64,000 bases of DNA from Sphaerolaimus hirsutus (lineage: Eukaryota > Nematoda > Chromadorea > Monhysterida > Sphaerolaimidae), in the NCBI GenBank assembly GCA_964036195.1, contig OZ038450.1, forward strand, positions 2,420,701 through 2,484,700, in the 5' to 3' direction. Positions 1 to 57,374 of this stretch are shown here, piece by piece. A program made the translations under genes and the position numbers. The first letter of the stretch is position 1. Each line of letters begins with the position of its first letter. A model generated the notes under the pieces. That model worked only from the letters and a program-made list of their open reading frames with translations. It searched no databases and was not told where the DNA came from.

Positions 1-124
1 TTAACTGTATTAATGTTTAGCCATTTTTCTACCTTTTCTAAATATATTCTACAACATGCGTTTTCTTGAAAATGCCTAGAAAAACAAAGTTTCCATCGCC
101 TCACTGTTTCCAAAGGAGCGAAAT

Positions 125-440
125 TTCCATTGCCTTTGTCATTGTCCCCATTAAAAAAAATAAAAAATACGCCCCCTCGTTGCGCTGTGCTTGTATTATT
201 GTACGTACGCTTGCATTTCCATTCCCTGCATCGGCAGCGCGCCGGATGTTTTTTTCCCTGCCGCGCGGCTCACTCCGTGCCGAGCTCCGCGCGCTGCGAA
301 CGGCCGCCCCCAGCCCCAGCGCGCCAGTTTCCTTGCTCCGAGCAACGTGCGCGTGGGACGTCCGCTGTGCATTCTCGCACGCTTTCGCTGTGTTTCTACG
401 GTACGACCTGGTGCCAGTCCCGCGCCCAGTACGCTGTAAA
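125..440. repeat. GC-rich block upstream of copy A
   Basis: GC-rich segment rich in GCGC and CCGC steps, repeated at 20047-20362 and 48921-49236. A diverged relative occurs in two pieces at 16806-16960 and 17360-17480, where a hairpin element has split it (CTGCCGCGCGGCT and CCCAGCCCCAGCGCG recur in both). It is open in several frames on both strands because of composition, and no frame shows domain-like sequence. It is possibly a repeat family or a CpG-like promoter block. Confidence 0.45.
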
Positions 441-590
441 GTCGAGTGTCAAATGTCATGTAAAATGTCAATCAAAACAAAAATACTTATTGTTGAAATT
501 TTGACATGATGCATGACAGTTGACAAATTTGTATGACCCTGCAGACATTTGACACTTGACTTTAGACTTTACAGGCTTCGGGACTGCCCC
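411..590. mobile_element. Miniature inverted-repeat element, GGGGCAGTCCC family (intergenic copy)
   Basis: Left end GTGCCAGTCCCGCGCCC, right end GGCTTCGGGACTGCCCC. The two halves are inverted repeats built on GTCAAATGTCATGTAAAATG. Identical copies are at 20333-20512 and 49207-49386. This is the same family that forms introns 5 and 10 of the MSP gene. Confidence 0.75.
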
Positions 591-710
591 TGGTCTTTGT
601 AAAATGTGTGCAATGTGTTGATTGTCAAAATGTCATGAAATGTCATGAAGTCGCGTTTGTTTCTAAGGGCTAAAACGACGCCATTGTACTTTTGGCGTGA
701 TCTCCCCCAC

Positions 711-1905: not shown

Positions 1906-1943
1906 ACAGTGATTTTTGATATTTTCTTAACATTAGGTAAATG

Positions 1944-2403: not shown

Positions 2404-5400
2404 ATGGCGACGGCGGCGACCAGCTCGGAGTTGGTGTTCGACGCGCTGCCAGCCGAGTCGGCCGACGCGCTGCTCAGCGTGCGCAACGCCACCAGCGCCC
2501 CGCTCGCCTTCAAGGTGCCCGGGGTGGGAGTACCTAATCTGTGCTGTTGACGTTGAGGGCATTGCCGTCGCGGCATGTAAGCCCCCTGGAGCCCAGCCGC
2601 CACTGTGAACGTTGTCCAGCCGTTAGGGCGCTCTTCTTCTATGCTAGAGGCGCGGGTTCGATTCCGTCTGCGCGGCACGGCATTTTTGCACTTTTCTCAA
2701 TGATTGGCCATACATAAATACAATGGTGTTCTAAATGAATTTCTAAAAATTAGGTAAACTCATAAATCAGCCTCGATCAAACGCAACGCAAGTGGCTTTA
2801 CTGGAATGAAATGACGGAGATAAATAATCACTCGTTCCGGTAAACTCAAATGCGTTCAAATCTGATGTACGACTTTTCAACTAGTCAACTAGTGTGCCAA
2901 TGATTAGGGTTCAAACGATATATCGTATCGAATATCGAATATCGGATATCGACCATTTTTTAATATCGAATATCGAATATCGATATCGAAAATTTTGAAA
3001 AAATATCGAATATCGATATCGAATATCGACCATATTTTCGATATATCGAACCTGTATAATGTCCTTAATTAAGTTATTATTTTTGTTTTGAGATATTTGT
3101 GATTAATTTGATTTGCTTATAGTATCTAAGTTGATGAGTAAAAGTAAAGTATTTAATGTCATTTTTGTTGCAGTGCTTACTCCACATTTCTTGTATTTGC
3201 TTTGGCCACATACCTACTGAACTACCTAGCTCAAATTTGAAGCCAGAAAATGCTGATATGCTGCTTTTTCGCAACATGCCCTTAAACAATTGGGTTATAA
3301 GTATGAATTGTAATATCTATCAATTTTTGTTTGTCTGATACAATTTGATTCATCATGTTTTTTCTTCGATTTTGTCATTCTGACCATTGTAAACCTTGTT
3401 AAAATCAATTGTACTTTTCAGTAAAGAGATAATCAACCATGTTTGCAACCATATGAAAATACAATATGCTGCTTGAAATATGCCTTGCTATACCAAAAGC
3501 TAAATATCGAATATCGAAAATATCGAAATATCGATATCGAATATCAACCATTTTTTAGTATCGAATATCGAATATCGATATCGAGGGTCCATATCGTATC
3601 GAATATCGATATCGAAAATTTTGAAAAAATATCGAATATCGAATATCGATATCGAAAATTTTGAAAAAATATCAAATATCGAATATCGATATCGAAAAGT
3701 GATATCGTTTGAACCCTACCAATGATAGACGCCAACTCCATCAAAACACCCTTTACCCAGCTGCACACGTCGGACAAGGCGCGGCTGCAGTGCGGCCAGC
3801 CGGTGGGCTTCCTGGCAGCGGGCCAGAGCGCCGGCATCCCCGTGCACTGGTCGGGCGCGAGCGGCGAGACCGGCCGCGGCCACAACCTGCAGATGTACAC
3901 GCTGCCCGCCCCGGACGAGGTGAGTTTGATGGAAAGCGCGGCTAAAAGTGGGTGGGTGATGTGTCCGGGAGCGGACTGGAGCGGCGTCGTGGTGTGAAAG
4001 TGCTGGTGAAGTGTCTGGTAGCCACTTCATGCGGGTCAGCATGCAGCCACTTCACGTCGCTTCACGACACTTCATCGTGCATCCACAATACGTCTTTGCG
4101 CTCGGGTATCTACCATGCATGTCAGGCATCTTCTCTAATGGTGCTGTCCACAAAGCACTTCCCACAGTAGGTATGCTCGCACGCACTAGAAAACTAGGCA
4201 ATCAAATACCTGCCATTGTCAGGCCGTGGAAGGCGGCGGGCCCACGGCAAGCGATTTCTGGCGTCAAATGGCCGAAGTGGGTCAGGACAACCGCGCGCGA
4301 AACCAGTGGCTGCGGGTGAAATTCAATAAGCAGGCATCCCCTTCGGTCGGCGGCCAGGCGCCCCCGATGTCGCACAAGACCACCGTGAACGTGTCCGAGC
4401 CCAACGAGAACAGGCACGTAATTCGAACGTAACGGCCCTAGACATAACTTTTCTAACCAAAATTATAAAAACTGATAAATCAGCCTTGAACGCATTTGAG
4501 TTAACCGCAATGAGGTATCCGTCAACTAGTTGACGGAGATTACAAATGACCGTTCCTAAATAGTAAACTGAAATTTACCGAGCTAATTTACGAGTTTTCA
4601 AAATTTCGTTTATAAACTAGGTACTGTGTATAGGATCAAAAACGCAATTTCATGCGCTCACTATTCAGAGCGCTTCACCTTACCCTCACCTACACCCAAA
4701 TCAAATGCACGCCCGCAGGAGCACGAACACGACGAGCACGGGCGCGAGCGCGACCACCGTGTCGAGCCACACCACGGCGCTGGCCACCTCGCCGGCGCAG
4801 CGCGGCACCGGCACCGGGTCGACCACGGGCGCCACCAGCGACTCGGCCTTCACTAGCACCAGCGGCACCACCGGCACCAGCGGGGCGACGAGACATAGCT
4901 GCACCACGGCCACGTGCCACTCGTACACCACTGGCACCGATACGTGAGTCAAGCGATTGGGGTCTACCTAAGTGGTGCATGCGTTTTGGGCGCTCGCGTA
5001 TTTCGCTCGCACGGAACCACGCACATTGCACTGAAACCTACCGTAACTCATCTGAATACAGGACTAGAAATTTAATTTTATTTGGAATAAATCATGGAAT
5101 AATTACTTTGATTTGACTGTGGGATGATTTAATACACAATTTAACACCAAATAACCATATTCATCAAACTATGGTAACGCTCTGTGCAAAGCATGCGGTC
5201 CGGGCAAAACACAATTGAGGCGTCTAATTCTAAAAGTCGACAAGTCCGCAAAATGCGATTTTGAGTAAATCGCATTTTAAGTTTTAGACCCAATTCCAGG
5301 CCCGTGGTGCGTGTCCAATTTGGCTTTCTCATGCTTTCCATTAAGTTCCATATGTTGACAATAAAGTGTCAAAGTTTCAGCCCCTGCTCTCTGCCTACCT

Positions 5401-7902
5401 ATATGTGAAAAATGGGGTGTCCGTAAATTTCCATTCGGTCAGAGCAAAACTGTTTTTGGGAGGTAAATGGACTTGTCGACTTCTTGCACGCGAGAACATT
5501 TTTGTTCCCGGCGACGAGGATGCTGCCTTATGCTGCGATTACAGCTCGGGCGTAAAATTGACCGGGCGTAAAATTGATTTTGGGCGTAAAATTGATTACA
5601 GATGAATGGATAAAGATACGACATTGTTATTTCAGTCAAAGAAAGCTTAGATGCAGACGTTTCTTGTCTCCAAAGCTCATGAGTTTATTTTAATCGTACC
5701 GGGAGTTATGAATTTTAGCACAATTTTTCCAATTATGCGCTGTAACTGGCGTAAAATTAGGGCGTAAAATAAACGAAATTTGCGACAAAATTCATAACTT
5801 CTGGTACAATTAAAATAAACTGATGAGCTTTGGACACAAGCAACATCTGCATGTGCGCTTTCTTTGACTGAAATTACAACGCCATATCTTTATCCATTCA
5901 CCTGTAATTAATTTGCAGCCCAAAAATCGATTTTACGCCCGTCAATTTTACGCCTGAGCTGTAATCGCATCATTATGGGAAATTTATAGATTTGTCGACT
6001 TTTACAAATCGGTTTCCACAGTGGACTATCACATTTCTTGCGTAGTTTACCATAAAAAATGATGCAGAGGATGGACTTGTCGACCTTTAGCCCAAAACTA
6101 AGTGGACTTGTCGACTTCATGCCCAAATTTTTTTTGCATTTTCCCACAAAAATGTCAAATTTGGCACTTTGCCATATGGGCATGTGAGGTCACAAATTTT
6201 ATGGAAAATGATGAAAAGTGTGCGGAAGCAGCCACAGATGACGTTTCCGGGCCTAACTCGAAATTTTCATATTATGGACTTGTCGACTTGCTAGAATTGG
6301 ACGCCTCAATTATAGCTACATACCTAATTACCACGTGCTCGCAGCGGCAGCAGCTGGAACACGACCACGGACGAGGGCACGACGATCACGCTCACGTCGG
6401 GCTTGTCGGCCAGCGCGACCGCCTCGGGCACGTTGACGACGGGCGCGCCGGTCGCAGCCGCGGCTGCCGCGTCCACGCACACGGCGCACGAGCTGCACAG
6501 CGCGCACACGGCCAGCGAGGGCCTGGTGACAGTCCCAGACCCTGTCAAGTGTGGAGTCAAGTGTCAAATGTCATGTAAAATGCGATGTAAAATGCGATGT
6601 AAAGCGTCAATTGTAATGAGAAATGTAAAGTGAAGTGTCAGATGTCATGCAAACTGTAATGCAAGTGTCAATTGTGATGACAAATGTAGAGTAAAGTGCC
6701 AATTGTCACTCAAATATTATTAGTAATAAAATCTTTTTTTAAATTTTGATTGACATTTTACATGACATTTTACACTTTACTTAACACTTTACTTGGTCTG
6801 GGACTGCCCGCTGGCCGACTTGCAGACGGCCAGCGAGCCGCGCGTATCCACCATGCGCTCGTCCGAGTCGTTCGGCGGCGACCGCAGCCACACCGCAGTC
6901 GACATTTCCGCTGATGGTATGGCGTGGGCAATTACGTTGAAGCGAGCGGTTCACTGAGTTTCGACGCTAGTGTGGAAAGTGCTTTCGCGCATGTTTCGCA
7001 GCAGATAAGATCTGGAAAAACAAGGTTCCGAATTTTTGAAATACTTATTGAATTTTGCATCATGCAAGAGGCGCCCGTAAAAGCCACGGGAAAAAATGTC
7101 CATTTTTATCTCTAAAGTAAAATACTCCAAAAGCAAAAAGCATCGAAAACGAATTTCACCACTGACAAAGTTCTATCGGACGTTTTTGCGCGAAAAACGC
7201 AGGAACTCAGACGGGCGGTCGCACCGTGACCGATGGCGATGTGGACCTCGTTTCGGAGCAGTTGGACAACGCAAAGACGCAGCCAATTGGCGGAGTTTCG
7301 CTCGTCACACAGGTTGGGCATGATGATGAGTGCTGCAGTTTTGGTATGAGATTATGATGGTGTGGTGGTAAATGCATTAAACACCAAATTTGGAGCACTC
7401 AGAAATCAACTTTGAATTGGCATTAAAGTTTTACTCGGTGTTCGTTAACTGCAGTTGACGAGAGTACAAATAACTCATTCCAGTCAACTCAAGTGCGTTA
7501 AAGAACGATTTGAGAGCTTACTAAAATTAAAAAATTACATTGCTTAACTAGTGTTTCCAGTGACATACATGTGGGTATTTCAGTAAATGCAAATTTTTTC
7601 TATAAAAACAGCAAATCCAATTTTACAGGTGCCAAAGCTTCAAAACGTATGGAAAACTCATACATACCTAAGCTTTGACCGCATTTGAGTTAACCGGAAT
7701 AAGTCATTAGCGGACACTTAATTCCGGTGAACTCAAATGCCTTCAAATTTAATTGATGGGGTTTCAAAATTCCACTTGAAAACTAGTGTCTCCGGCCATT
7801 GTGACCATTATTTCGCAGCCGCCCTTGCCACCGCCGGGCATGCAAAAGCGCGGCCGGGTGCACCGCTTCGCGCAGTGGATGGAGCGCTCCATACGCGGAC
7901 AT
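2404..7902 (+). CDS. MSP-domain protein, copy A, exons 1-8 only
   Basis: Exons: 2404-2514, 3761-3919, 4223-4428, 4719-4943, 6345-6525, 6838-6916 (or 6826-6916), 7203-7312, 7819-7902. Splice phases match copy B and all eight exons are open. Differences from B are scattered substitutions (for example MAEVG for MSEVG, LDNAKTQ for LAEAKSQ), so the coding part is well preserved while introns have diverged by private insertions. The copy lacks the counterparts of B exons 9-11. Homology to B stops at about 7937, in the G-run after exon 8. The next recognisable exons belong to topoisomerase II (8840-8995, 9367-9429) and are in compatible phase. Copy A may therefore be a truncated paralogue, a pseudogene or the front of a chimeric gene. 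The start codon is chosen because it opens the MSP domain and is conserved in B. Confidence 0.62.
2611..2677 (+). ncRNA. tRNA-derived SINE-like remnant in intron 1
   Basis: GCCGTTAGGGCGCTC resembles a pol III A box, and GGGTTCGATTCC is an excellent B box at proper spacing, followed by GTCTGCGCGGCA. The T-arm stem does not pair well and no full cloverleaf could be drawn, so this is a SINE or tRNA fossil, not a tRNA gene. Equivalents are at 22565-22631 and 51439-51505. Confidence 0.35.
2757..2896. mobile_element. Palindromic CACTAGTTTTCAACC-family element in intron 1
   Basis: Ends in ACTAGTGTGC directly before the hAT insertion and about 34 bp before the exon 2 acceptor. The centre is degenerate. 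B counterparts are 22692-22841 and 51566-51715. The same family occupies intron 3 (4448-4625, 23561-23740) and intron 7 (7378-7553 and 7640-7789; 26142-26337 and 26405-26598). Confidence 0.6.
2905..3718. mobile_element. Non-autonomous hAT element in intron 1 of copy A
   Basis: Ends TAGGGTTCAAACGATAT...ATATCGTTTGAACCCTA form terminal inverted repeats, flanked by the perfect 8-bp duplication CCAATGAT (2897-2904 and 3719-3726). Copy B has a single CCAATGAT (22842-22849) and no insert. The arms are built from GAATATCGATATCGA repeats. At 3231-3300 a conceptual reading LKPENADMLLF resembles the C-terminal dimerisation region of hAT transposases, so the element is an internal-deletion derivative of an autonomous hAT. 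Confidence 0.88.
5213..6311. mobile_element. 1.1-kb palindromic element in intron 4 of copy A
   Basis: Ends TTGAGGCGTCTAATTCTA... and ...TAGAATTGGACGCCTCAA are inverted repeats, with GGACTTGTCGAC motifs throughout. Central arms of about 180 bp (roughly 5535-5718 and 5795-5975) fold back around a loop near 5757. It is absent from copy B. The left breakpoint of the 28.9-kb duplication (5697) lies in the left arm close to the loop; only the right part (34571-35185) recurs in unit 2. Confidence 0.82.
6526..6825. mobile_element. GGGGCAGTCCC-family element forming intron 5 of copy A
   Basis: The intron begins GTGACAGTCCCAGACC, which is the element's left end. The right end GGTCTGGGACTGCCC lies at 6814-6828 or nearby, immediately before exon 6. 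The interior is the family's inverted repeat (GTCAAATGTCATGTAAAATG ... CATTTTACATGACATTTTAC). Counterparts are 25325-25580, 35400-35699 and 54199-54454. An ACGGCCAGCGAG 12-mer lies on both sides (6508-6519 and 6826-6837). Confidence 0.78.
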
Positions 7903-8839
7903 GTTCGTTTCCATTGATAGCTGGAAAAGAATTGGGGGGGTTCGATATATACACTTTTTGAAGATGTAGAAAAAAGGTAGAAAAGCTTTTGAAAGCATTT
8001 GAAAGCTCTAGTCATGGCGCACATCAACAAATTTTTTTTATTGCTGCATTTGTATTCAAATTTTTAATTTATTGAGGTTTTAAAATTTCAAACAGATACC
8101 GTCCCAAAGTGGGCGGAGCCTGTGAAAAAAATTCCCGAAAATAAGAAATGGCATCATATGCTCTTTCATATGAGCCATCAACCATGAAAATCGGTCGTGT
8201 TTCAAGGAAGTTATTGCAGTTTGAAGATTGTCGGGAGAACAAGAAGAACAACAACAACAACAACAAGAACAACAACACTACTTGAAAAAGAAAATCCGTA
8301 ATAACTTCCTTCGAACTCAACCGTTGGATCTGAAAATTTGCATGGTGGTACTTTTCGACACGGGCTTTTTAATGGTACAATCGGTTCTGCACTAGCGCAT
8401 TGCGTTCCGAAGTTATTGCGATTTTAAATTTGCGATTTCCGCATTTTGGTGTGTCCGACCATATTATGGGTGGGTCGCTTGCGCCCTCCCTCGGCAGCGA
8501 GGGATGGCGCTGGCGCGCCCACCCGATTACAGAGTATTGCCACTGTCTGATATACCTATATATGTTGACACAAGGTCATATCTGGGAGCTTTAAAAAAAA
8601 CATTTTTTTTATTTAAAAAAAACTTTTTTTTAAACAAAAAACATCGAGTTAAAAAAAACGTTTTTTTCAACCCTAGGCCTGAGATGTTTAATAAGAAGAA
8701 TTAGAGATGGAATGAAATAATCAAAAAAATATTTGTATTAACTATCTCCAGTCACTTACCTTAAAATGCGGTATGAGCACCAGGGTACACTGTATCCCAT
8801 TAATTCCGCTATTTATAACACAACCAAATCCCCACACAG
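7903..8839. other. Interval between MSP copy A exon 8 and topoisomerase exon: intron-like, no gene seen
   Basis: It opens with the copy A donor GTTCGT and ends with the topoisomerase acceptor CACACAG. It holds an AAC microsatellite (8236-8278), a G/C-rich patch with short inverted GCGCTGGCGCG motifs near 8510, and poly-A/poly-T stretches at 8590-8665. No coding sequence is supported. Same content at 36777-37713. Confidence 0.5.
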
Positions 8840-13004: not shown

Positions 13005-13285
13005 TGTAAAAAAGTTCTGTACTCACATTTACCTATACTTTTTTAACGAACTCGAGTATTTCAGATAGGCTTTTTATAGGCTTTTTCCAGGCATAGATGG
13101 GAAAAATGTAAAAATGTAGAAAAATGGGTAAGATGGAGGGAAAATGTCAAGAATAGAATGGTCAAATAGTCACGATAAATTAGAGATTTTTAGTGAAATT
13201 GGGGCAAAATTACTAAAAAATAATCACTTACATTTTCTCAGGGAAAAATTATTTTACTCATGTTCCCTCATGAGTAAGAGTAAAA
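13005..13285. repeat. Inverted relative of the 10390-10830 TACTCATGAG repeat
   Basis: TATAGGCTTTTTCCAGGCATAGATGGGAAAA... to TTTTACTCATG...CATGAGTAAGAG matches the reverse complement of 10390-10830 in order and spacing. It directly abuts the satellite at 13286. Copy at 41879-42159. Confidence 0.6.
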
Positions 13286-14069
13286 TCCATAACTCCAATT
13301 CGATTGGGAACAGATCCAACACTCCAATTCGATTGGGAACAGATCCACTTCCAATTCGATTGGGAACAAATCCAACACTCCAATTCAATTGGGAACAGAT
13401 CCACTTCCAATTCGATTGGGAACAGATCCACTTCCAATTCGATTGGGAACAGATCCACTTCCAATTCGATTGGGAACAGATCCACTTCCAATTCGATTGG
13501 GAACAGATCCACTTCCAATTCGATTGGGAACAGATCCACTTCCAATTCGATTGGGAACAGATCCAACACTCCAATTCGATTGGGAACAGATCCACTTCCA
13601 ATTCGATTGGGAACAGATCCATAACTCCAATTCGATTGGGAACAGATCCACTTCCAATTCGATTGGGAACAGATCCAACACTCCAATTCAATTGGGAACA
13701 GATCCACTTCCAATTTGATTGGGAACAGATCCAACACTCCAATTCGATTGGGATCCAATTCGATTGGGAACACATCCAACACTCCAATTCGATTGGGAAC
13801 ACATCCAACACTCCAATTCGATTGGGAACACATCCAACACTCCAATTCGATTGGGAACAGATCCAACACTCCAATTCGATTGGGAACACATCCAACATTC
13901 CAATTCGATTGGGAACACATCCAACACTCCAATTCGATTGGGAACACATCCAACACTCCAATTCGATTGGGAACAGATCCAACACTCCAATTCGATTGGG
14001 AACAGATCCACTTCCAATTCGATTGGGAACAGATCCATAACTCCAATTCGATTGGGAACCGATCCATCA
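13286..14069. repeat. Satellite array, about 28 units of 27-29 bp (CCAATTCGATTGGGAACA)
   Basis: Tandem units CCAATTCGATTGGGAACAGA followed by TCCACTT (27 bp) or TCCAACACT (29 bp). One truncated unit lies near 13750. ACACATC variants are concentrated in the right half. Each unit holds CCAAT and ATTGG around TCG. The array is open in several frames on both strands only because the unit lacks stops. Copy at 42160-42943. Confidence 0.95.
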
Positions 14070-14338
14070 CTTGCACTGTCATTCGCAAAATCAATAAAAA
14101 AATCAGCAAATCTAATGCATTGTCTACTGCTGGCGGGGGGGGGGGGGGTTATTCTAGGGGGGATTTTTTCCTCACCTCGCCAACAGGGTGGAGTTATTCA
14201 AGGGGAAGTTATTCGAGGGGGACTTATTTGAGAATTTGCGGTATTATTCTGCATCACTGCCACCTTATTCGCAGCGAAATGCTATATAAACTGCACACAG
14301 CTTTGGTTAGGTATTTGCATCCACATAAATATCAATTT

Positions 14339-14508
14339 GGTGCAAGTCCCGAGCCCTGAAAAGTGTCAAATCAAGTCAAATGTCATGTTAACTGTCAATC
14401 AAACAAAAGGAGACTATTTTATTACCAAAATTTTGACACTATATGACAATTGACAATTTGTATGACATTTTACATGAATGTTGACACTTGACTTTACGGG
14501 TCTGCCCC
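14339..14508. mobile_element. GGGGCAGTCCC-family element, intergenic
   Basis: Ends GGTGCAAGTCCCGAGCCC and TTTACGGGTCTGCCCC, with internal inverted GTCAAATGTCATG repeats. Copy at 43213-43382. A degenerate relative without clear ends is at 16130-16275. Confidence 0.65.
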
Positions 14509-19345: not shown

Positions 19346-19353
19346 AATGAAAA

Positions 19354-19766
19354 TCACTAGCGGGATCGAATTTGGTTTGAATCACTGGCAGGATCGAATC
19401 TGGTTCGAATCACTAGCGGGATCGAATCTTGTTCGAATCACTAGCGGGATCGAATTTGGTTTGAATCACTAGCGGGATCGAATCTGGTTCGAATCACTAG
19501 CGGGATCGAATCTGGTTCGAATCACTAGCGGGATCGAATTTGGTTCAAATCACTAGCGGGACTGAATTTGGTTCGAATCACTAGCGGGATCGAATCTGGT
19601 TTGAATCACTAGCGGGATCGAATTTGGTTCGAATCACTAGCGGGATCGAATTTCGTTCGAATCACTAGCGGGATCGAATTTGGTTTGAATCACTAGCGGG
19701 ATCGAATTTGGTTCGAATCACTAGCGGGATCGAATCTGGTTTGAATCACTAGCGGGATCGAATCTG
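19354..19766. repeat. Satellite array, about 15 units of 28 bp (TCACTAGCGGGATCGAATTT)
   Basis: Units TCACTAGCGGGATCGAATTT+GGTTCGAA with C/T exchanges at two sites (AATTT or AATCT; TTCGAA or TTTGAA). It ends 156 bp before the start of the copy B segment. Copy at 48228-48640. Confidence 0.93.
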
Positions 19767-22356
19767 TCGATTGCGTATTGTCCAGGAGATCAAGACCTAT
19801 CCACCATTGATTCACACTTTACTGATAACATAAACGCCTAACAGGGGGGACTTATTCGGAAATTTACGGTAGGTATACTTTTAAATATACTTTTAAATTA
19901 GGTACGTGTTTTAACTGATGTTTTAACTGTATTAATGTTTAGCCATTTTTCTACCTTTTCTAAATATATTCTACAACATGCGTTTTCTTGAAAATGCCTA
20001 GAAAAACAAAGTTTCCATCGCCTCACTGTTTCCAAAGGAGCGAAATTTCCATTGCCTTTGTCATTGTCCCCATTAAAAAAAATAAAAAATACGCCCCCTC
20101 GTTGCGCTGTGCTTGTATTATTGTACGTACGCTTGCATTTCCATTCCCTGCATCGGCAGCGCGCCGGATGTTTTTTTCCCTGCCGCGCGGCTCACTCCGT
20201 GCCGAGCTCCGCGCGCTGCGAACGGCCGCCCCCAGCCCCAGCGCGCCAGTTTCCTTGCTCCGAGCAACGTGCGCGTGGGACGTCCGCTGTGCATTCTCGC
20301 ACGCTTTCGCTGTGTTTCTACGGTACGACCTGGTGCCAGTCCCGCGCCCAGTACGCTGTAAAGTCGAGTGTCAAATGTCATGTAAAATGTCAATCAAAAC
20401 AAAAATACTTATTGTTGAAATTTTGACATGATGCATGACAGTTGACAAATTTGTATGACCCTGCAGACATTTGACACTTGACTTTAGACTTTACAGGCTT
20501 CGGGACTGCCCCTGGTCTTTGTAAAATGTGTGCAATGTGTTGATTGTCAAAATGTCATGAAATGTCATGAAGTCGCGTTTGTTTCTAAGGGCTAAAACGA
20601 CGCCATTGTACTTTTGGCGTGATCTCCCCCACGCCCACACACAACAATTTTCAACCGAACTTTCGAAAACTTATGAATCGGCTTTGAACACATCTGTCTT
20701 TACTGAAATGAGTTCTTTTGAATGCCCATCAACTTCAGTTGACGGCCACCTCATTCCGGTAAACTGCAATGCGTTCAAAGCTGAATTGTTAGTTTTCAAA
20801 ATTTCGGTTGAAAACTAGTGTGTGTAGAACCAATATATTAATCAGCTTTGAATGCATTAGTATTTTCTAGAATGAGGCAACTGTCAACTACAGTTGACAG
20901 AGATTAAAATAAGTCATTTTAGAACTCAAATGCACTCAAAGCAGATTAATTAGTTTTTAAAATTTGAGTTGAAAGCTAGTGTACACCAGGCCATTGTGCA
21001 AATGAACTGTAAAAAATGATGCAAAATGATGCACTTTTTAATCATCACATTTTAACATCTTGTATTTAAGAAAATATTAAAAAAATCACTTTGCCCGCAC
21101 ACACTAGTTTTCAACCAAAATTGCAGAAACTCATAAATGAGCTTTGAATTCATTTTAGTTTTATAGAATGAAGTGACTATCAAGTACAGTTGACAGAGAT
21201 CAAAAATGAGTCATTTTTATTAAATTATTTGTTTATTAAATCAGATTTATTAAATACAGGATGTGAAAATGTGATGATTTAAAAGAAAGTGCATCATTTC
21301 TGCATCATTCTTTATGGTTCGTTACATTTGCTCAAAATTGCCCTGCACACACTAGTCTTCAACTGAAACTTTAAAATCTAATAAATCTGCTTTGAATGCA
21401 TTTGAGTTTTCCAAAATGACTCCTTTTTTATTCCTGCCAACTGTAGTTGACAGTCACCTAATTCTATAAAACTAAATTGCATGCAAAGTTGATTTATGAG
21501 TTTTTGGAAATTTTGGTTTAAAACTAGTGTGTGCACTGTGCAGGCACAAAAGTGATTTTTGGTATTTTCTTAAATGCAGGATGTAAATGAAATTTTTAAA
21601 ACCAAAGTGCATCATTTCTGCTTCATTTTTACAGTTTGTGACACATGCAAAAAATTGCCGTGCACACATTAGTTTTCAACCAAGACTTTAAAAACTAATA
21701 AATCTGCTTTGGATGCATTTAAGTTTTCCAAAGTGAGTCATTTTTAATCTCTGTCAACTGTAGTTGGCAGCACCCTAATTATAGAAAACTAAAATCCATT
21801 CAAAGCTGATTTACGAGTTTTTGAAATTTTGGTTGAAAACTAGTGTGTTCAGGCAAAAAAGTGATATTTGATATTTTCTTAACATTAGGGAAATGTTATT
21901 TTTATAATAAAGTTGAAGATATTTGGGAAAGTTGTAATAGCGCGTTGAAATTTACGCTGTGACCATAATACCTAGTTTGGAAAAAAGATTTCTATAATCG
22001 ATGTGGGATGGTCTGGTGCTGACATGGCTCCGAAACTAGATTTTAACAAACACCTTAACGATATTCATCATGGCATAAACCTACGTCAAATGGCGAATAC
22101 GGTAATTCAACGCAAAGCATTTAGCTACCCAACAAAACAAGTGGCAAACTCAATTCACCACATCCACTTACGAATCCACAATCGAATTTCCACGAAAAAA
22201 CCCAGTCACATCACATCACAATAACTCGCAGCATCTCCACAACCCACAACTCCTCCCACATCCGCCCCTCAGCCAATAACCCCGACGCGCGCCGCCCAGC
22301 CGCGAGCACTTTTTCACTGGTTCGATCGCGACCCCCGCAGCCGCAACAGCGATCCG

Positions 22357-25300
22357 ATGGCGACGGCGGCGACCAGCTCGGAGTTGGTGTTCGACGCGCT
22401 GCCAGCCGAGTCGGCCGACGCGCTGCTCAGCGTGCGCAACGCCACCAGCGCCCCGCTCGCCTTCAAGGTGGGCGGGGGTGGGACTACCTAACGTGTGCTG
22501 TTGACGTTGAGGGCATTGCCGTCGCGGCATGTAAGCCCACTGGTACCCAGCCGCCACTGTGGACGTTGTCCAGCCGTTAGGGTGCTCTTGTTCAATGCTA
22601 GAGGCGCGGGTTCGATTCCGTCTGCGCGGCAGTGCATTTTTGCACTTTTCGCAATGATTGGCCATACATACAATGGTGTTCTGAATGACATTCTAAAAAT
22701 TGGATAAACTCGTAAATCAGCCTCGATCAAAGGCAAGTGGCTATACTGGAATGAGATGACGGATATTAATAATCACTCGTTCCGGTAAACTCAAATGCGT
22801 TCAAATCTGATGTACGACTTTTCAACTAGTCGACTAGTGTGCCAATGATAGACGCCAACTCCATCAAAACACCCTTTACCCAGCTGCACACGTCGGACAA
22901 GGCGCGGCTGCAGTGCGGCCAGCCGGTCGGCTTCCTGGCAGCGGGCCAGAGCGCCGGCATCCCCGTGCACTGGTCGGGCGCGAGCGGCGAGCGCGGCCGC
23001 GGCCACAACCTGCAGATGTACACGCTGCCCGCCCCGGACGAGGTGAGTTTGTTGGAAAGCGCGGATAAAAGTGGTGTGTGAACGTGAAATGCTTTCGTGA
23101 AGCGTGTGGAGATCCTGACATGCTTGCTGAATGCTGAACCGTCGGGAAGTGTCAGCTACTTCACGACGTTTCACGACGCTTCATCGTGCATCTATTTACT
23201 ATACGTCTTTGCGCTCGGGTATCTATATACTATCTCTGGTATCTTCTCTATGGCGCTGTCCACTAAGCACTTCCCACAGTAGGTAAGCTCGCACGCACTA
23301 GAAAACTAGTCAATCAAATATCTGCCATTGTCAGGCCGTAGAAGGCGGCGGGCCCACGGCAAGCGATTTCTGGCGCCAAATGTCCGAAGTGGGTCAGGAC
23401 AACCGCGCGCGAAACCAGTGGCTGCGGGTGAAATTCAATAAGCAGGCATCCCCTTCGGGCGGCGGCCAGGCGCCCCCGATGTCGCACAAGACCACCGTGA
23501 ACGTGTCCGAGCCCAACGAGACCAGGCACGTAATTCGAACGTAACGGCCCTAGACATAAGTTTACTAACCAAAATTATAAAAACTCATAAATCAGCCTTG
23601 AACGCATTTGAGTTCACCGCAATGAGGTGTCCGTCAACTAGTTGACGGAGATTACAAATGACCGTTCCTAAATAATCAACTGATATTTACTGAGCTAATT
23701 TACGAGTTTTCAAACTTTCGGTTATAAACTACTGTATATAGGCAATAATACAAAAAAACGCAATTTCATGCGCTCACTATTCAGAGCGCCTCACCTTACC
23801 CTCACCTAAACCCAAATCAAATGCACACCCCGCAGGAGCACGAACACGACGAGCACGGGCGCGAGCGCGACCACCGTGTCGAGCCACACCACGGCGCTGG
23901 CCACCTCGCCGGCGCAGCGCGGCACCGGCACCGGGTCGACCACGGGCGCCACCAGCGACTCGGCCTTCACCAGCACCAGCGGCACCACCGGCACCAGCGG
24001 GGCGACGAGACCTAGCTGCACCACGGCCACGTGCCACTCGTACACCACTGGCACTGATACGTGAGTCAAGCGATTGGGGACTACATTTCGACCCCGTGCC
24101 TCACTGCAAGAAAACTCGCTCTGCAAGTAGTAGCGGTCTGCACATGATTGTGCAGGTAAACGCACCCCCCCCCCCTCCTATGCATGCACATGCAGAACTT
24201 GAATGCATTCATACAACGAATAAGGTGCAAGTTTTCTGAGAAATTCTGAGAAAAAATACCCCCTTGAATAATTTGCCCCTCCAAAACTTCTGAGGATTAA
24301 ATAACTCCTCTGGGGTCTTATTGGCGCTATGCACACTGAAGCCGAAATTTTCGGCATACGCACGTTTTCATCTGCCGAATCCGAATTTAAAAATTGCTGT
24401 TCGGACGTTTTATGTTCGGCATTTTAGGGGCCGCCATATTGAATTTTGAAAACGTGCGCACGATATTCGGACGAATTCTGACGAATTTGAGCGTTAATTT
24501 TTAGACGCTGAGGTATGTTGAAAGCAACATACTTCGGCATTTTCTATGATAAGGACAATAGCTGAATGTGTGTATTTACCGTATTGGCTTGCGTACCGTA
24601 CCGTACTCGCAATTTCGACAATTGTACATTTTTAGCAGTTCAGCATTCAACATTTCATCTGATTTTGCCGAATGGTTTCCGCATGTAAAAGTGTACGCAT
24701 CTTTTGAATGCTGAAATACATGCTGAATTGACAAACAGCCTAATTTTCAAGAGTACGGACGATTTTAGTTCAGCAAGTTTTTTTCTATTCAGCATTTAAT
24801 TCGGCATTTGTCAAAAACGTGCGTATGCCGAATATTTCGGCTTCAGTGTGCGTAGCGCCATTAGATGATATACAGCCCTCTGATCTCATTAAGGGAAGGA
24901 GAAACCAAAATTTTACCACATTACAAAATTCATCAAACTATGGTACACTCTATACAAAGCATGCGGTCGGGTCTGTACACATTACCTAGCTACATACCGT
25001 ATATCCTCGAATAAGTCCCCCGGCGAGTTATTTTTTTCGTCAGAGTTTTTGAGGGGGGAGTTATTCAAGGGTGGGGAGTTATTCAAGGGGGGTCTTATTC
25101 GAGGATATACGGTACTTACCACATGCTGCACACACGCTCGCAGCGGCAGCAGCTGGAACACGAGCACGGACGAGGGCACGACGATCACGCTCACGTCGGG
25201 CTTGTCGGCCAGCGCGACCGCCTCGGGCACGCTGACCACGGGCGCGCCGGTCGCAGCCGCGGCTGCCGCGTCCACGCACACGGCACACGAGCTGCACAGC

Positions 25301-28300
25301 GCGCACACAGCCAGCGAGGGCCTGGTGACAGTCCCAGACCCTGTGAAGTGTGGAGTCAAGTGTCAAATGTTATGTAAAGTGTAGTGCAAAGTGTCAATTG
25401 TCGTGACAAATGTAAAGTGAAGTGTCAATTGTCATGGAAAGTGTAACGCAAAGTGTCAATTGTCACGCAAATATTAGTAAGGAAATCTTTTTTGTTTGTT
25501 TTGATCGACACTTTACATGACATTTGATACGTCACTTTACACTTTACTGGAACTGGGACTGCCCGCTGGCCGACTTGATGACGGCCAGCGAGCCGCGCGT
25601 GTCCACCATGCGCTCGTCCGAGTCGTTCGGCGGCGACCGCAGCCACACCGCAGTCGACATTTCCGCTGATGGTATGGCGTGGGCGATTACGTTGAAGCCA
25701 GCGGTTCACTGAGTTTCGACGTAGTGTGGAAAGTGCTTTCGCGCATGTTTCGCAGTAGATAAGATCTGGAAAAACAAGGTTCCGAATTTTTGGAATACTT
25801 ATCGAATTTTGCATCATGCAAGAGGCGCCCGTAAAAGCCACGGGAAAAATGTCCATTTTTATCTCAAAGGTAAAATACTCCAAAAGCAAAAAGCATCGAA
25901 AACGAATTTCACCACTGAAAAAGTTCTATCGGACGTTTTTGCGTGAAAAACGCAGGAACTCAGACGGGCGGTCGCACCGTGACCGATGGCGATGTGGACC
26001 TCGTGTCGGAGCAGTTGGCCGAGGCAAAGAGTCAGCCGATCGGTGGAGTGTCGCTAGTCACACAGGTTGGGCACGATGAGTGCTGCAGTTTTGGATTTTC
26101 AAAAGGTGTGACGATGTGTGTTAAATGCATTGGACACTAGTTGACTGCCTGTAAACGAAAAATTTAGTAAACTCATAAATCAAATTTGAAGTGGCATTTG
26201 AGTTTACTGGGTGTTTGTTGACTGCAGTTGACCGAGAGTGAAAATAACTCATTCCAATCAACTAAAATGCGTAAAAGCATAAAGGCAGATTTACGAGTTT
26301 ATTAAATTTTGAAAAGTAATTGTTCAACTAGTGTGTGCTGTGACATTTCATGATGGTAAATAAATGCAAAAAATTAAAACTAGTAAAGCCTATTTTACAG
26401 GTGCCAAAGCTTCAAAGTATGGAAAACTCATAAATACATCAACTTTGAACGCATTTGAGTTAACCGGAATGAGTCATTTTTATCACCGTCTAGAGTAGTT
26501 AACGGACACTTCATTCCGGTGAACTCAAATGCCTTCAAATCAATGCCTCAAATGCCTTCAATTTATAAGTTTCCAAATTCCACTTGAAAACTAGCGTGTA
26601 GGGCAGGGCCAATGTGACCAGTTTCGCAGCCGCCCTTGCCGCCGCCGGGTATGCAAAAGCGCGGCCGGGTGCACCGCTTCGCGCAGTGGATGGAGCGCTC
26701 CATACGCGGACATGTTCGTTTCCATTGATCGCTGGAATAGAATTGGGGGGGGGGGGTTCAATATACCGTATTACCTCGAATTAACCCCCCCTTGAATTAA
26801 CCCCCCCCCCCCTCGAATTAACCCCCCCTCAAAATGGGCTGGGGAAATAATAAACCCCCTCGAAATACCCCCCCCAAATACAGTGTAAAGAGCATGTACA
26901 CAACAAATACCACAATGTGTGAACTGTATTATGCAGAACACACGTTAAAACTGATGACTGCGTGACGTTAGGGAAAGGTTTATGTGTATATACACTTGTA
27001 TTTATATGCCTATAAACACTCATACGTCTCTGACAATTTTGTATTTTTCTATGTCTGAGTATGGCAAATTTCATAAAATTTCTGGCGAAATAATAGACCC
27101 CCCTCGAATTACCCCCCCCCCCGACCATTTTATCGCCGATAAGATTTTGTATAATACTTGGCGCCAACTTTCAAGTTGCTAAATTGTCAAGTGTCAAAAA
27201 AAATGACCTGAAACACTTTCAGTTGAACAGGAGTCAAGTGAAAAGTATCTTTGCTTGCTACAGGCTTAGTAAAACACTTATCACAATCTATCACTTGACA
27301 TGTGACTTGACAAAGTGCAAAGCCCTATCTAGCACCTGTCAAGCTCACCCCCCCCCCCCCCAACACAGAACGCGCTGACCAACGAGGAGCTGTCTGTGCG
27401 CACGGCGTACGGGTTGTCGCTGCGCGACGCGGCCGAGATGAACAGCCGCCGGCGGCGGTCCTGGCGCCACAGATTGGCCGACTTCCTGTTCGGCAAGTAC
27501 ATGCCCGTCACCAATGAGTTCGAACACAAGGTGCGCTGAAACGGGTAGTGGAATGTGTCCACGCGCGATAGTTGATAAAAGAAATTTCTAAAAGTGATAA
27601 ATTTCCGTTTTGAATGCATTTGAGTTTACCGTAATTATTATTTTTAATGTCCAGCGACAGAAGTTGACGAATACTATCATTCAGGTAAATTAAAATGTGT
27701 TTAAAACAGATTCATTAGCTTTGGAAACTACCCAATTTTGGCATGGAAATTTACAAATTTTGGAAATTTTCATGTGAAGTGCCAAATGTCATGTGGCGTC
27801 AAAAAATTTTTACTGAACTTTTGACAAATTTGTATGACATTTCGCATGATATTTGACAGTTTACGGGACGCGGGAGTGCCCCTGGCATCATCCGGTGTGC
27901 TAATCATTTATTACGGTGCGCAATTGCTATTTTACCCAATTCACGCGACATTCCATTTTCAGTCCAAATCGATTCGTAAGCAGCCGAAATCGACTCGCAA
28001 ACAGTCGAAATCGACCCGCAAGCAAGCCGAGTTCAAATCGACCGCAAAAGACAAGAGCGCCAAGAAGGGCAACAAAGGGGGCGGGTTCTCGTGGATGCGC
28101 AACATGTTCAAATCGTCCAAGAAAAGCGCCGACATCAGGTGCCACCTTCAGACCCTGTCAAATGCCCTGTCAAATGGCATGCAGTGTCAAGTCATGTGAA
28201 ATGCCCTGGAAAATGTCAAATGCCATGCAGTGTCAAGTCATGTAAAATGCCCTGGAAAATGTCAAATGTAATGCAGTGTCAAAAGTCATGTAAAAGTGCC

Positions 28301-28500
28301 CGAAAAAAGCAAAAGTTGCCATCTTCCAGTTCCAGGGCATTTTACAAGACTTCTAACACTTTACATGACATTTTACAGTTTACAAGACATCTGACACTTT
28401 GCATGACATTTTACAGTTGACAGGGCATTTGACAGTGTCTGGGAGTGCCCCCAGCAAGAAGCAGCAGCTGCAGCAGAGCGGCCGCGGCGCCACCGTGTGA
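22357..28500 (+). CDS. MSP-domain protein, copy B, complete 11-exon gene
   Basis: Exons: 22357-22467, 22884-23042, 23335-23540, 23836-24060, 25144-25324, 25593-25671, 25956-26065, 26630-26713, 27369-27530, 27963-28138, 28455-28500. They join in frame (1,539 nt, 512 aa plus stop) with GT...AG introns. Residues about 8-126 (exons 1-3) align without gaps over much of their length to nematode Major Sperm Protein: an ELVFDALP strand, NATSAPLAFK, CGQPVGFLAAG in place of the P-x-G turn, and RARNQWLRVKFNK matching the final MSP strand. Residues about 159-294 (exons 4-5) are Ser/Thr/Ala-rich and low complexity. Exon 8 begins PPLPPPG. Exon 9 carries an RRRR cluster. Exon 10 has three K-S-(I/T)-R-K-Q hexads and many lysines. 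There is no signal peptide or membrane segment. MSP domains form cytoskeletal filaments in nematode sperm or act as VAP-type adaptors; the role here is unknown. The exon 3 donor and exon 6 acceptor are the least certain boundaries. Confidence 0.75.
24322..24860. mobile_element. Palindromic TGGCGCTA element in intron 4 of gene B
   Basis: TGGCGCTATGCACACTGAAG...ATACGCACGTTTT and its inverted copy AAAACGTGCGTAT...CTTCAGTGTGCGTAGCGCCA. It is absent from copy A. Target duplication is unclear (TTA on both sides is possible). Copy at 53196-53734. Confidence 0.75.
24997..25112. mobile_element. 116-bp TA-flanked miniature element in intron 4 of gene B
   Basis: CCGTATATCCTCGAATAAGT and its inverted copy at the right end, flanked by TA on both sides. 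Copy A has the uninterrupted site TAGCTACATACCTAATTACC, so the insertion and its TA duplication are defined. It ends 31 bp before exon 5. It is a Tc1/mariner-like target choice. Copy at 53871-53986. Confidence 0.82.
26764..27122. mobile_element. G-rich CCGTATTACC-family element in intron 8, right end missing
   Basis: Starts TACCGTATTACCTCGAATTA with C-runs up to 10 and shows the family interior (TTCTGGCGAAATAATAGACC). It stops in a C-run near 27122 without a terminal repeat. Its left end adjoins the G-run where copy A/B homology ends. Copy at 55638-55996. Confidence 0.65.
27770..27893. mobile_element. Partial GGGGCAGTCCC-family element in intron 9
   Basis: Right part is intact (GTTTACGGGACGCGGGAGTGCCCC). 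The left terminus is not recognisable. Unlike introns 5 and 10, this intron extends beyond the element on both sides. Copy at 56644-56767. Confidence 0.6.
28139..28454. mobile_element. GGGGCAGTCCC-family element forming intron 10 of gene B
   Basis: The whole 316-bp intron is the element. Its donor GTGCCACCTTCAGACC is the left end and its acceptor CTGGGAGTGCCCCCAG the right end. The interior consists of inverted GTCAAATG/CATTTGAC repeats. The identical intron is at 57013-57328. Confidence 0.82.
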
Positions 28501-31096: not shown

Positions 31097-31248
31097 AGGA
31101 GCAGCCCCGCACCCTGCAAAGTTAGGAGTAAAGTGTCACATGTCATGTAAATGTTTTTTGTGCTGATCATTTTATATGTTGCATGACTTTGACAAATTTG
31201 TATGAAATTTGACATGACGTTCGACACTTTACAGGGTGCGAGCCTGCC
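31097..31248. mobile_element. GGGGCAGTCCC-family element left of the AT-rich block
   Basis: Left end GGAGCAGCCCCGCACCCTG, right end CAGGGTGCGAGCCTGCC, with inverted internal repeats. It lies just upstream (on the minus strand) of the first visible exon of the unrecognised gene. Copy at 59971-60122. Confidence 0.6.
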
Positions 31249-54200: not shown

Positions 54201-57200
54201 GACAGTCCCAGACCCTGTGAAGTGTGGAGTCAAGTGTCAAATGTTATGTAAAGTGTAGTGCAAAGTGTCAATTGTCGTGACAAATGTAAAGTGAAGTGTC
54301 AATTGTCATGGAAAGTGTAACGCAAAGTGTCAATTGTCACGCAAATATTAGTAAGGAAATCTTTTTTGTTTGTTTTGATCGACACTTTACATGACATTTG
54401 ATACGTCACTTTACACTTTACTGGAACTGGGACTGCCCGCTGGCCGACTTGATGACGGCCAGCGAGCCGCGCGTGTCCACCATGCGCTCGTCCGAGTCGT
54501 TCGGCGGCGACCGCAGCCACACCGCAGTCGACATTTCCGCTGATGGTATGGCGTGGGCGATTACGTTGAAGCCAGCGGTTCACTGAGTTTCGACGTAGTG
54601 TGGAAAGTGCTTTCGCGCATGTTTCGCAGTAGATAAGATCTGGAAAAACAAGGTTCCGAATTTTTGGAATACTTATCGAATTTTGCATCATGCAAGAGGC
54701 GCCCGTAAAAGCCACGGGAAAAATGTCCATTTTTATCTCAAAGGTAAAATACTCCAAAAGCAAAAAGCATCGAAAACGAATTTCACCACTGAAAAAGTTC
54801 TATCGGACGTTTTTGCGTGAAAAACGCAGGAACTCAGACGGGCGGTCGCACCGTGACCGATGGCGATGTGGACCTCGTGTCGGAGCAGTTGGCCGAGGCA
54901 AAGAGTCAGCCGATCGGTGGAGTGTCGCTAGTCACACAGGTTGGGCACGATGAGTGCTGCAGTTTTGGATTTTCAAAAGGTGTGACGATGTGTGTTAAAT
55001 GCATTGGACACTAGTTGACTGCCTGTAAACGAAAAATTTAGTAAACTCATAAATCAAATTTGAAGTGGCATTTGAGTTTACTGGGTGTTTGTTGACTGCA
55101 GTTGACCGAGAGTGAAAATAACTCATTCCAATCAACTAAAATGCGTAAAAGCATAAAGGCAGATTTACGAGTTTATTAAATTTTGAAAAGTAATTGTTCA
55201 ACTAGTGTGTGCTGTGACATTTCATGATGGTAAATAAATGCAAAAAATTAAAACTAGTAAAGCCTATTTTACAGGTGCCAAAGCTTCAAAGTATGGAAAA
55301 CTCATAAATACATCAACTTTGAACGCATTTGAGTTAACCGGAATGAGTCATTTTTATCACCGTCTAGAGTAGTTAACGGACACTTCATTCCGGTGAACTC
55401 AAATGCCTTCAAATCAATGCCTCAAATGCCTTCAATTTATAAGTTTCCAAATTCCACTTGAAAACTAGCGTGTAGGGCAGGGCCAATGTGACCAGTTTCG
55501 CAGCCGCCCTTGCCGCCGCCGGGTATGCAAAAGCGCGGCCGGGTGCACCGCTTCGCGCAGTGGATGGAGCGCTCCATACGCGGACATGTTCGTTTCCATT
55601 GATCGCTGGAATAGAATTGGGGGGGGGGGGTTCAATATACCGTATTACCTCGAATTAACCCCCCCTTGAATTAACCCCCCCCCCCCTCGAATTAACCCCC
55701 CCTCAAAATGGGCTGGGGAAATAATAAACCCCCTCGAAATACCCCCCCCAAATACAGTGTAAAGAGCATGTACACAACAAATACCACAATGTGTGAACTG
55801 TATTATGCAGAACACACGTTAAAACTGATGACTGCGTGACGTTAGGGAAAGGTTTATGTGTATATACACTTGTATTTATATGCCTATAAACACTCATACG
55901 TCTCTGACAATTTTGTATTTTTCTATGTCTGAGTATGGCAAATTTCATAAAATTTCTGGCGAAATAATAGACCCCCCTCGAATTACCCCCCCCCCCGACC
56001 ATTTTATCGCCGATAAGATTTTGTATAATACTTGGCGCCAACTTTCAAGTTGCTAAATTGTCAAGTGTCAAAAAAAATGACCTGAAACACTTTCAGTTGA
56101 ACAGGAGTCAAGTGAAAAGTATCTTTGCTTGCTACAGGCTTAGTAAAACACTTATCACAATCTATCACTTGACATGTGACTTGACAAAGTGCAAAGCCCT
56201 ATCTAGCACCTGTCAAGCTCACCCCCCCCCCCCCCAACACAGAACGCGCTGACCAACGAGGAGCTGTCTGTGCGCACGGCGTACGGGTTGTCGCTGCGCG
56301 ACGCGGCCGAGATGAACAGCCGCCGGCGGCGGTCCTGGCGCCACAGATTGGCCGACTTCCTGTTCGGCAAGTACATGCCCGTCACCAATGAGTTCGAACA
56401 CAAGGTGCGCTGAAACGGGTAGTGGAATGTGTCCACGCGCGATAGTTGATAAAAGAAATTTCTAAAAGTGATAAATTTCCGTTTTGAATGCATTTGAGTT
56501 TACCGTAATTATTATTTTTAATGTCCAGCGACAGAAGTTGACGAATACTATCATTCAGGTAAATTAAAATGTGTTTAAAACAGATTCATTAGCTTTGGAA
56601 ACTACCCAATTTTGGCATGGAAATTTACAAATTTTGGAAATTTTCATGTGAAGTGCCAAATGTCATGTGGCGTCAAAAAATTTTTACTGAACTTTTGACA
56701 AATTTGTATGACATTTCGCATGATATTTGACAGTTTACGGGACGCGGGAGTGCCCCTGGCATCATCCGGTGTGCTAATCATTTATTACGGTGCGCAATTG
56801 CTATTTTACCCAATTCACGCGACATTCCATTTTCAGTCCAAATCGATTCGTAAGCAGCCGAAATCGACTCGCAAACAGTCGAAATCGACCCGCAAGCAAG
56901 CCGAGTTCAAATCGACCGCAAAAGACAAGAGCGCCAAGAAGGGCAACAAAGGGGGCGGGTTCTCGTGGATGCGCAACATGTTCAAATCGTCCAAGAAAAG
57001 CGCCGACATCAGGTGCCACCTTCAGACCCTGTCAAATGCCCTGTCAAATGGCATGCAGTGTCAAGTCATGTGAAATGCCCTGGAAAATGTCAAATGCCAT
57101 GCAGTGTCAAGTCATGTAAAATGCCCTGGAAAATGTCAAATGTAATGCAGTGTCAAAAGTCATGTAAAAGTGCCCGAAAAAAGCAAAAGTTGCCATCTTC

Positions 57201-57374
57201 CAGTTCCAGGGCATTTTACAAGACTTCTAACACTTTACATGACATTTTACAGTTTACAAGACATCTGACACTTTGCATGACATTTTACAGTTGACAGGGC
57301 ATTTGACAGTGTCTGGGAGTGCCCCCAGCAAGAAGCAGCAGCTGCAGCAGAGCGGCCGCGGCGCCACCGTGTGA
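51231..57374 (+). CDS. MSP-domain protein, second copy of gene B
   Basis: Exact copy of the 22357-28500 gene in the second 28.9-kb unit. Exons: 51231-51341, 51758-51916, 52209-52414, 52710-52934, 54018-54198, 54467-54545, 54830-54939, 55504-55587, 56243-56404, 56837-57012, 57329-57374. No coding or splice-site difference was seen from the first copy, so the predicted 512-aa product is the same. If the tandem duplication is real, the genome has two identical B genes plus the diverged A copy. If it is an assembly artefact, this entry is redundant. Confidence 0.7.

Follow-up and report, generated by a model that had tools for sequence, protein, structure and literature searches.

Near the end of a putative gene in a 64,000-nucleotide stretch of genomic DNA from the nematode Sphaerolaimus hirsutus (contig OZ038450.1; "the window" means this whole stretch), a 313-bp foldback element lies between the last two exons with CAG directly on either side (table; positions are those of the window unless a contig is named). 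The junction letters, 28139-28454 and edges, read ...GACATCAG/GTGCCACCTTCAGACC...GGGAGTGCCCC/CAG/CAAGAAG, the element starting with GTGCCACC and finishing with GTGCCCC. When the element was kept in, the upstream frame ran into the stop codon TGA at 28197-28199, and when the element and one CAG were deleted, the frame (ATC AG/C AAG) stayed open until the stop ending at 28500. A sequence-only reading of the window had taken 28139-28454 for an intron of an MSP gene made entirely of a miniature transposon whose termini supply both the GT donor and the AG acceptor. Its coordinates and sequence were borne out by re-reading, and the GT does stand in the element end, whereas the AG lies beyond the element, in the CAG of the target duplication; the Pfam match to Motile_Sperm (E = 0.11) fell below the cut-off and at best hints at the gene's identity. 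The anatomy of the element, taken with the behavior of its family described below, suggests that it acts as its own intron.

In alignment, the arms of the element formed a long imperfect inverted repeat, paired over much of its length, and its folding energy lay about 10 standard deviations under that of shuffled sequences (z = -10.5). It is an older, diverged member of its family, with 4 mismatches to the family consensus in the left 16 bases and 2 in the right 16. The gene end occurs a third time at 5.307 Mb of contig C1, in a 93% identical duplicate that carries the same element at 96% identity, with a left end (GTGCCACTCCCAGACC) one base off the family consensus.

The family was found to be large. 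In the 348.5-Mb genome, the consensus terminal 19-mer CAGGTGCCAGTCCCAGACC occurred 9,702 times when up to two mismatches were allowed, the reversed control occurring twice, and exact end matches numbered 850 for the CAG form (CAGGTGCCAGTCCCAGACC) and 722 for the CTG form, with 0 for the controls. The window element, being diverged at its ends, falls outside the 9,702 end matches; used by itself, it gave at least 120 related genome matches at E ≤ 0.001, the 40 best of 4,817 first-look candidates having been scored. For closer analysis, 100 exact copies on contig C1 were sampled (loci L009-L108), 50 with CAG and 50 with CTG on the left side, which was built into the search pattern; the CAG-left copies were not strictly consecutive, since, below 16.9 Mb of C1, 8 places with the exact CAG form were left out. 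In 79 of the 100 the right end was recognizable and had CAG or CTG directly after it (35 CAG/CAG, 29 CTG/CTG, 11 CTG/CAG and 4 CAG/CTG), so that the same trinucleotide stood on both sides in 64 and the flanks were mixed in 15. Left CTG with right CAG (11/40) exceeded the reverse (4/39), the excess not being significant (p = 0.08). Copies with left CTG and right CAG include L071, L077, L085, L087, L090, L091, L092, L097, L102 and L104. Such mixed flanks might reflect selection for an AG acceptor, or else a W:W mismatch in the overhang that was repaired.

Element length, measured in 77 sampled copies, ranged from 113 to 432 bp (median, 184 bp), which is too short to encode a transposase. Short length, inverted terminal repeats, duplication of CWG (CAG or CTG) and lack of transposase capacity place these copies among the miniature inverted-repeat transposable elements (MITEs). 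The two ends, A (GTGCCAGTCCCAGACCCTGT) and B (GGGGCAGTCCCAGACCCTGT), differ at bases 2 and 4 alone, and the end consensus of 22 copies, chosen by their exact left 16 bases, was GTGCCAGTCCCAGACCCTGTAAAATG for A and GGGGCAGTCCCAGACCCTGTAAAATG for the opposite end B. The opposite end was of B type in 75 and of A type in 2 of the 77 sampled copies, all of which had been picked for an exact end A.

To score the reading frame around the copies, each flank was evaluated for coding potential in six frames using a Drosophila codon table entered by hand. The left and right flanks, scored independently, agreed on strand and frame in 38 of the 79 copies, where chance agreement of 1/6 would give about 13 (p = 1e-10), and in 35 of these 38 end A was upstream, end B being upstream in 3 (p = 7e-8). 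When both flanks were read in the end-A-upstream sense, the phase difference was 0 in 35 copies, 1 in 4 and 2 in 3. The CTG/CTG copies alone gave 10:2 in favor of end A upstream. The three antisense exceptions were L078, which has A-type ends on both sides, L073, which has GC instead of GG at the start on the gene strand, and L037, which is unexplained. A sequence common up to both boundaries, bounded by CWG in 79 of the 100 copies and lying in frame with end A upstream in 35 of the 79, is what would be expected of an introner, that is, an intron made by insertion of the repeated element into an exon.

Protein homology across the junctions pointed in the same direction. Thirty-nine joined proteins, chosen by eye as coding-looking, were submitted to Pfam after removal of the element and one target copy (2 were faulty and not used), and junction-crossing matches above the cut-off were obtained at 8 loci (table). 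The remaining proteins gave nothing, sub-threshold matches or one-sided matches (EGF at L049, Cation_ATPase at L092 and Gcd10p at L078). A Srx-like match (E = 0.0065) was among those below the cut-off; together with the weak Motile_Sperm match it might, at a guess, point to a nematode-like ecdysozoan. COX1 was located on a 14,754-base contig, where 220 residues could be read without a stop under the invertebrate mitochondrial code; its best matches among solved chains bear the COX1 label and are presumably mammalian. By eye we also saw presumed likenesses to ALKBH7 (L079; Pfam below cut-off), STARD10, GPATCH1, sirtuin, cyclin Y and Na/K-ATPase.

The Rcd1 protein, which we take to be CNOT9, had a single locus in the genome when used as query, and this locus is interrupted at the element (L098); an intact protein can thus come only from an element-free message, unless the assembly lacks another copy. 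What is apparently one OSCP1 gene holds two copies about 0.8 kb apart, L065 (C1:3592147, CTG/CTG) and L018 (C1:3592982, CAG/CAG). An element-free paralogue was found for the lectin-like locus L032, whose joined flanks matched C1:7909163-7909362, 74 kb off, over 200/200 bases at 93%; positions 1-173 of the joined flanks also matched two places on C15 at 74-75% over 182 bases with no element-sized insert. The CWG duplications and this uninterrupted paralogue indicate insertion into an exon. Taken with frame and orientation, these homologies suggest that the copies are spliced from mRNA at the element boundaries.

Table. Features of the window and sampled loci with junction-crossing Pfam matches (residues on domain positions; element and one target copy removed). 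A slash within letters marks a boundary.
Feature	Position or locus	Strand	Flanks	Basis or match
Upstream exon, acceptor TTTTCAG/TCCAAATCG, end ...AGC GCC GAC ATC AG	27963..28138	+		sequence; open frame
Left target-site duplication copy CAG, upstream exon end	28136..28138	+		sequence reading
Probable introner of 313 bp with the A end (GTGCC...) at its 5' side and the B end (...GTGCCCC) at its 3' side, opens with putative GT donor	28139..28451	+		
Right duplication copy CAG, putative source of AG acceptor	28452..28454	+		sequence reading
Last exon, C AAG AAG CAG CAG CTG ... GTG TGA	28455..28500	+		sequence; open frame
Junction-crossing match	L018		CAG/CAG	Oscp1, 3.4e-19, 50 residues on 50 positions
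Junction-crossing match	L065		CTG/CTG	Oscp1, 2.3e-17, 44 on 44
Junction-crossing match	L098		CTG/CTG	Rcd1, 4e-64, 120 on 120
Junction-crossing match	L100		CTG/CTG	Sugar_tr, 6.9e-18, 69 on 69
Junction-crossing match	L086		CTG/CTG	Xan_ur_permease, 2e-14, 70 on 69
Junction-crossing match	L085		CTG/CAG	Cyclin_N, 5.2e-7, 70 on 69
Junction-crossing match	L025		CAG/CAG	PAN_1, 8e-5, 52 on 44 (lengths differ)
Junction-crossing match	L104		CTG/CAG	AMP-binding, 4.9e-10, 84 on 103 (lengths differ)
Family copy, identical copy at 20333-20511	411..589	+	CTG/CTG	
Family copy between in-frame stretches, ...GAG GGC CTG/element/CTG GCC GAC...	6526..6810	+ (coding strand putative)	CTG/CTG	
Diverged family copy	14339..14508	+		
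Counterpart of 6526-6810 in duplicated gene copy	25325..25565	+	CTG/CTG	
Partial family copy, apparently nested in preceding intron 27531-27962; contrast case	27761..27882	+		
Diverged family copy	31097..31248	+		
Second, identical copy of the intron, within exact tandem repeat	57013..57328	+		

Folding was predicted for 81 elements (the 77 sampled copies, the window intron, its L003 counterpart and the two other window copies), each compared with 20 shuffles of two-base blocks. The predicted fold had z ≤ -6.1 in all 81, and the first four and last four bases were both unpaired in 68, because the two differing bases of ends A and B stand opposite each other. The terminal repeats also contain decoy splice sites, a donor CCCT/GTAAAATG and an acceptor TTTTACAG/GG; the GT of the decoy donor was paired in 74 of the 81 predicted folds, and of the 69 copies with an AG 16 bases from the end, 62 had this decoy AG in a predicted pair.

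From these observations the following route may be proposed. Short, non-autonomous foldback DNA transposons would insert at CWG, duplicating three bases. In an exon that receives the element with its A end upstream, that end would provide the GT 5' splice site, and the right-hand copy of the target, following the C-rich B end, would provide the 3' end of the intron as CAG or, apparently, CTG. Splicing out of the element with one target copy, presumably by the spliceosome, would restore the pre-insertion mRNA exactly. At the foot of the hairpin the splice sites would be single-stranded and the two ends brought together, while the decoy sites would mostly be paired and so hidden. The asymmetry of the ends would then be what makes an introner of an ordinary foldback transposon. 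The window feature is very probably a member of a large introner family of this kind, a CWG-targeting foldback DNA transposon spliced with the GT of end A. The proposal of the sequence-only reading that a mobile family has ends doubling as splice sites and makes introns by insertion is thus supported genome-wide by the end counts, the frames and orientation, the Pfam junctions, the CNOT9-like locus and the lectin-like paralogue, and the interpretation as a whole held in part.

The 3' end of the CTG-right copies calls for separate treatment. An AG end is present in the window copy and in CAG-right copies, and CTG-right copies, L098 for example, lack it at their exact boundary; exact removal from conserved exons leaves no AG at the intron end in the CTG/CTG copies L065, L079, L086, L098 and L100. 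An internal ACAG acceptor was rejected for the CTG copies, as its use leaves 19 bases and shifts the frame with the A-consensus donors at 0, +6, +18 and +30. Since the CTG/CTG boundary lacks AG and the nearest AG is out of frame, the simplest reading is GT-TG for CTG-right copies and GT-AG for CAG-right copies. That one animal family gives rise to introns at CAG as well as at CTG targets, many of them GT-TG, and that an asymmetric hairpin lets the spliceosome use CTG genome-wide, is proposed tentatively, at a little under an even chance.

The alternative with the greatest remaining weight, though an unlikely one, is that CTG-right copies are removed by a route other than GT-TG splicing, either structure-directed excision from mRNA (reportedly termed "SOS splicing") or somatic excision from DNA. 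A literature search for "SOS splicing" with transposon and inverted repeat found no paper. The lack of AG at the exact CTG/CTG boundary and the strong hairpins predicted in all 81 folded elements would suit such a route, and in the available text on Amoebophrya, introners likewise combine hairpins with non-canonical ends (PMC7789003). Such a route should, however, ignore the order of the ends, whereas the CTG/CTG copies prefer end A upstream (10:2, or 7:4 under the weaker codon model described below); the end-A-upstream bias implies that GT is needed at the intron start, which excision at the DNA level or by structure alone would not require. Human U2-type GT-TG introns also exist (PMC4176328), as far as the accessible part of that report describes them.

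A second alternative, which we regard as improbable, is that the true donor is the stronger-looking CCCT/GTAAAATG, 18 bases inside the element, each insertion adding six codons. The first 18 bases of both end consensuses are stop-free in three frames and 18 preserves the frame, and codon-adding introners are known from Aureococcus, according to the part of the survey available (PMC9860276). The same internal donor is present on both ends, so that B placed upstream of a gene-sense CAG should serve just as well; yet B was upstream in no more than 2 of the 12 CTG/CTG copies whose flanks agreed, one of them being L078 with A-type sequence at both ends. The internal donor was also base-paired in 74 of 81 predicted folds, and L018, L065, L098 and L100 matched conserved families without extra residues after removal of the whole element.

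Hardly to be expected are two further readings. If the introns were old and the elements had merely landed within them, as the partial copy in intron 27531-27962 appears to have done, a preference for existing introns would likewise place copies near exons, but no intron sequence remains beyond the element and target copy in the window copy and the Pfam-junction copies, the flanks join in frame exactly there (35:4:3), and the lectin-like paralogue lacks an insert. If instead the copies were unspliced exon insertions in broken alleles or pseudogenes, landing in an exon would by itself yield in-frame flanks, but no orientation bias is predicted, the GT end being upstream in 35/38 (24/30 in the weaker model), the only CNOT9-like locus found holds a copy, and an OSCP1 gene holds two.

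Several observations weigh against the proposal set out above. A clear right end with CAG or CTG was lacking in 21 of the 100 sampled copies, which were excluded from scoring, and frames were not in agreement in 41 of the 79 scored. The strand calls (35/38) depend on the hand-entered Drosophila codon table, and the orientation ratios were weaker under a codon model trained on the loci themselves, 17:2 for CAG/CAG and 7:4 for CTG/CTG (end A upstream in 24 of 30 when both sets were pooled); this model was set aside as arbiter because of its extreme third-position GC (GC3) bias (0.84) and its disagreement with Pfam on L086. The length of the longest open reading frame distinguished the groups poorly (CAG vs CTG, p = 0.39; sense vs antisense, p = 0.035 for CAG, which is weak, and p = 0.51 for CTG), and was discarded as a test of coding for being too weak. 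The Pfam set provides no test of orientation, because its proteins were hand-picked and nearly all were end-A-upstream, and the selection for exact end A that bears on the A/B asymmetry also left the sample without double-B copies. In 69 of the 81 elements an ACAG, normally a favored acceptor, precedes the element end by 16 bases and is countered only by the frame (+1) and by predicted pairing. A genome search with the joined exons matched only interrupted copies and found no uninterrupted form of the window exon junction, and no element-free relative was found for the CTG/CTG site of L080 in the receptor-like pair L080/L082. Finally, a transposase partner with the ends of the family was not found, the three DDE_Tnp_4 loci inspected ending otherwise (GGCCCCACGCACAC...).

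As to the source of mobility, the NuwaI group of PHIS (PIF/Harbinger-related) transposons, found in animals, is described as making a 5'-CWG-3' duplication and as having terminal repeats that usually begin with GGG (PMC4482050, available text). The CWG target duplication is common to NuwaI and the present family, and the GGG start corresponds to end B (GGGGCAG), whereas end A (GTGCCAG) does not fit it. Autonomous NuwaI elements differ in encoding a DDE transposase and a Myb/SANT protein, for which the copies here are too small, and the available text mentions no introns for NuwaI (PMC4482050). Mobilization by a PHIS (NuwaI-like) transposase may be supposed on these grounds. DDE_Tnp_4 gave 163 matches in the genome, and the elements at L109-L111 were rejected as autonomous partner because their ends differ from those of the family. 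These three DDE_Tnp_4 elements aligned over about 2.5 kb at 97-98% identity, with one end GGCCCCACGCACACTAG, and more than 100 similar places were among the matches listed; this looks like the result of a recent expansion of a different Harbinger-like family.

Further copies lie in the window (table). The copy noted at 411-590 in the sequence-only reading is indeed of this family, its exact span being a 179-bp element at 411-589 with CTG/CTG flanks. The copies at 6526-6810 and 25325-25565, which have CTG/CTG flanks and separate in-frame stretches that belong to one gene region, are additions to those listed in that reading. It is possible that 6526-6810 lies inside a minus-strand gene with the 18-base internal donor, a reading that can be made in frame, but the plus-strand reading fits the CTG/CTG class found genome-wide. 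An exact tandem repeat of 28,868 bp (5697-34564 = 34571-63438, 100% identical, period 28,874) may be an artefact of assembly or may have arisen by duplication very recently; because the halves are identical, features within this 28.9-kb repeat count once, and the intron copy at 57013-57328 was dropped as independent evidence. An older partial duplication of the gene region (1-7940 vs 19923-26751, 83-97% identical in pieces) was rejected as uninterrupted control, because it does not include the last exons. Minisatellites were seen at 13285-14071 (29-bp unit, about 27 copies) and 19352-19763 (28-bp unit, about 15 copies). The segment 8819-9055 presumably resembles the N-terminal part of DNA topoisomerase II, and Pfam gave no match there.

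The origin of introns is a long-standing question, and animal cases of intron gain by insertion are few. Henriet et al. (2019) reportedly found MITE-made introns in the tunicate Fritillaria borealis, with relaxed splice-site rules and mostly non-GT sites; the present case differs in that GT is kept and variation is on the 3' side. Introners derived from DNA transposons are known, and a Chrysochromulina example carries its 5' site and co-opts its 3' site from the duplication (PMC9860276). According to the available part of the same 2022 survey (Gozashti et al.), introners among animals and land plants occur in two groups only, both of them animals, copepods being named (PMC9860276). The introners described there likewise include repeated introns whose similarity extends as far as the splice sites, inverted terminal repeats, short target duplications or both, and one site taken from a duplication; the CWG duplication, the two-base end difference and the use of CTG as well as CAG on the 3' side were not seen in that text, the comparison covering the survey without its family and species tables, among which the family or species treated here could be (PMC9860276). 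In Amoebophrya introners, too, inverted repeats at either end of the intron form hairpins, direct repeats of 3-5 nt span the exon boundaries and splice sites are non-canonical, but these introners belong to a dinoflagellate and have variable boundaries with no family-specific repeat motifs in the text available (PMC7789003), whereas here a single family keeps its GT and CWG ends constant. The U2-type GT-TG introns of human GNAS and TSPYL2 are rare and offer a precedent for a TG 3' splice site, though as isolated cases in genes and not as a mobile family (PMC4176328, in part). No animal introner family with CWG duplications was found in the literature searched, supplements and most subscription papers excepted, and the combination of CWG duplication, two-base asymmetry and CAG or apparently CTG 3' ends in one animal family looks new.

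If the proportion of 35 in 100 is applied to the 1,572 exact copies, about 550 introns would be obtained, diverged copies being uncounted and the figure being extrapolated from one contig. The family provides a natural experiment in which one and the same element occurs in either orientation, with CAG as its target in some places and CTG in others and with conserved genes among its sites, by which the effects of insertion can be separated from selection on splicing. Should CTG copies prove to be spliced in the predicted way, they would also test how far RNA structure overrides the AG rule. The reading proposed here, if true, would represent a route by which new introns arise in bulk from a mobile hairpin, sometimes apparently without an AG end.

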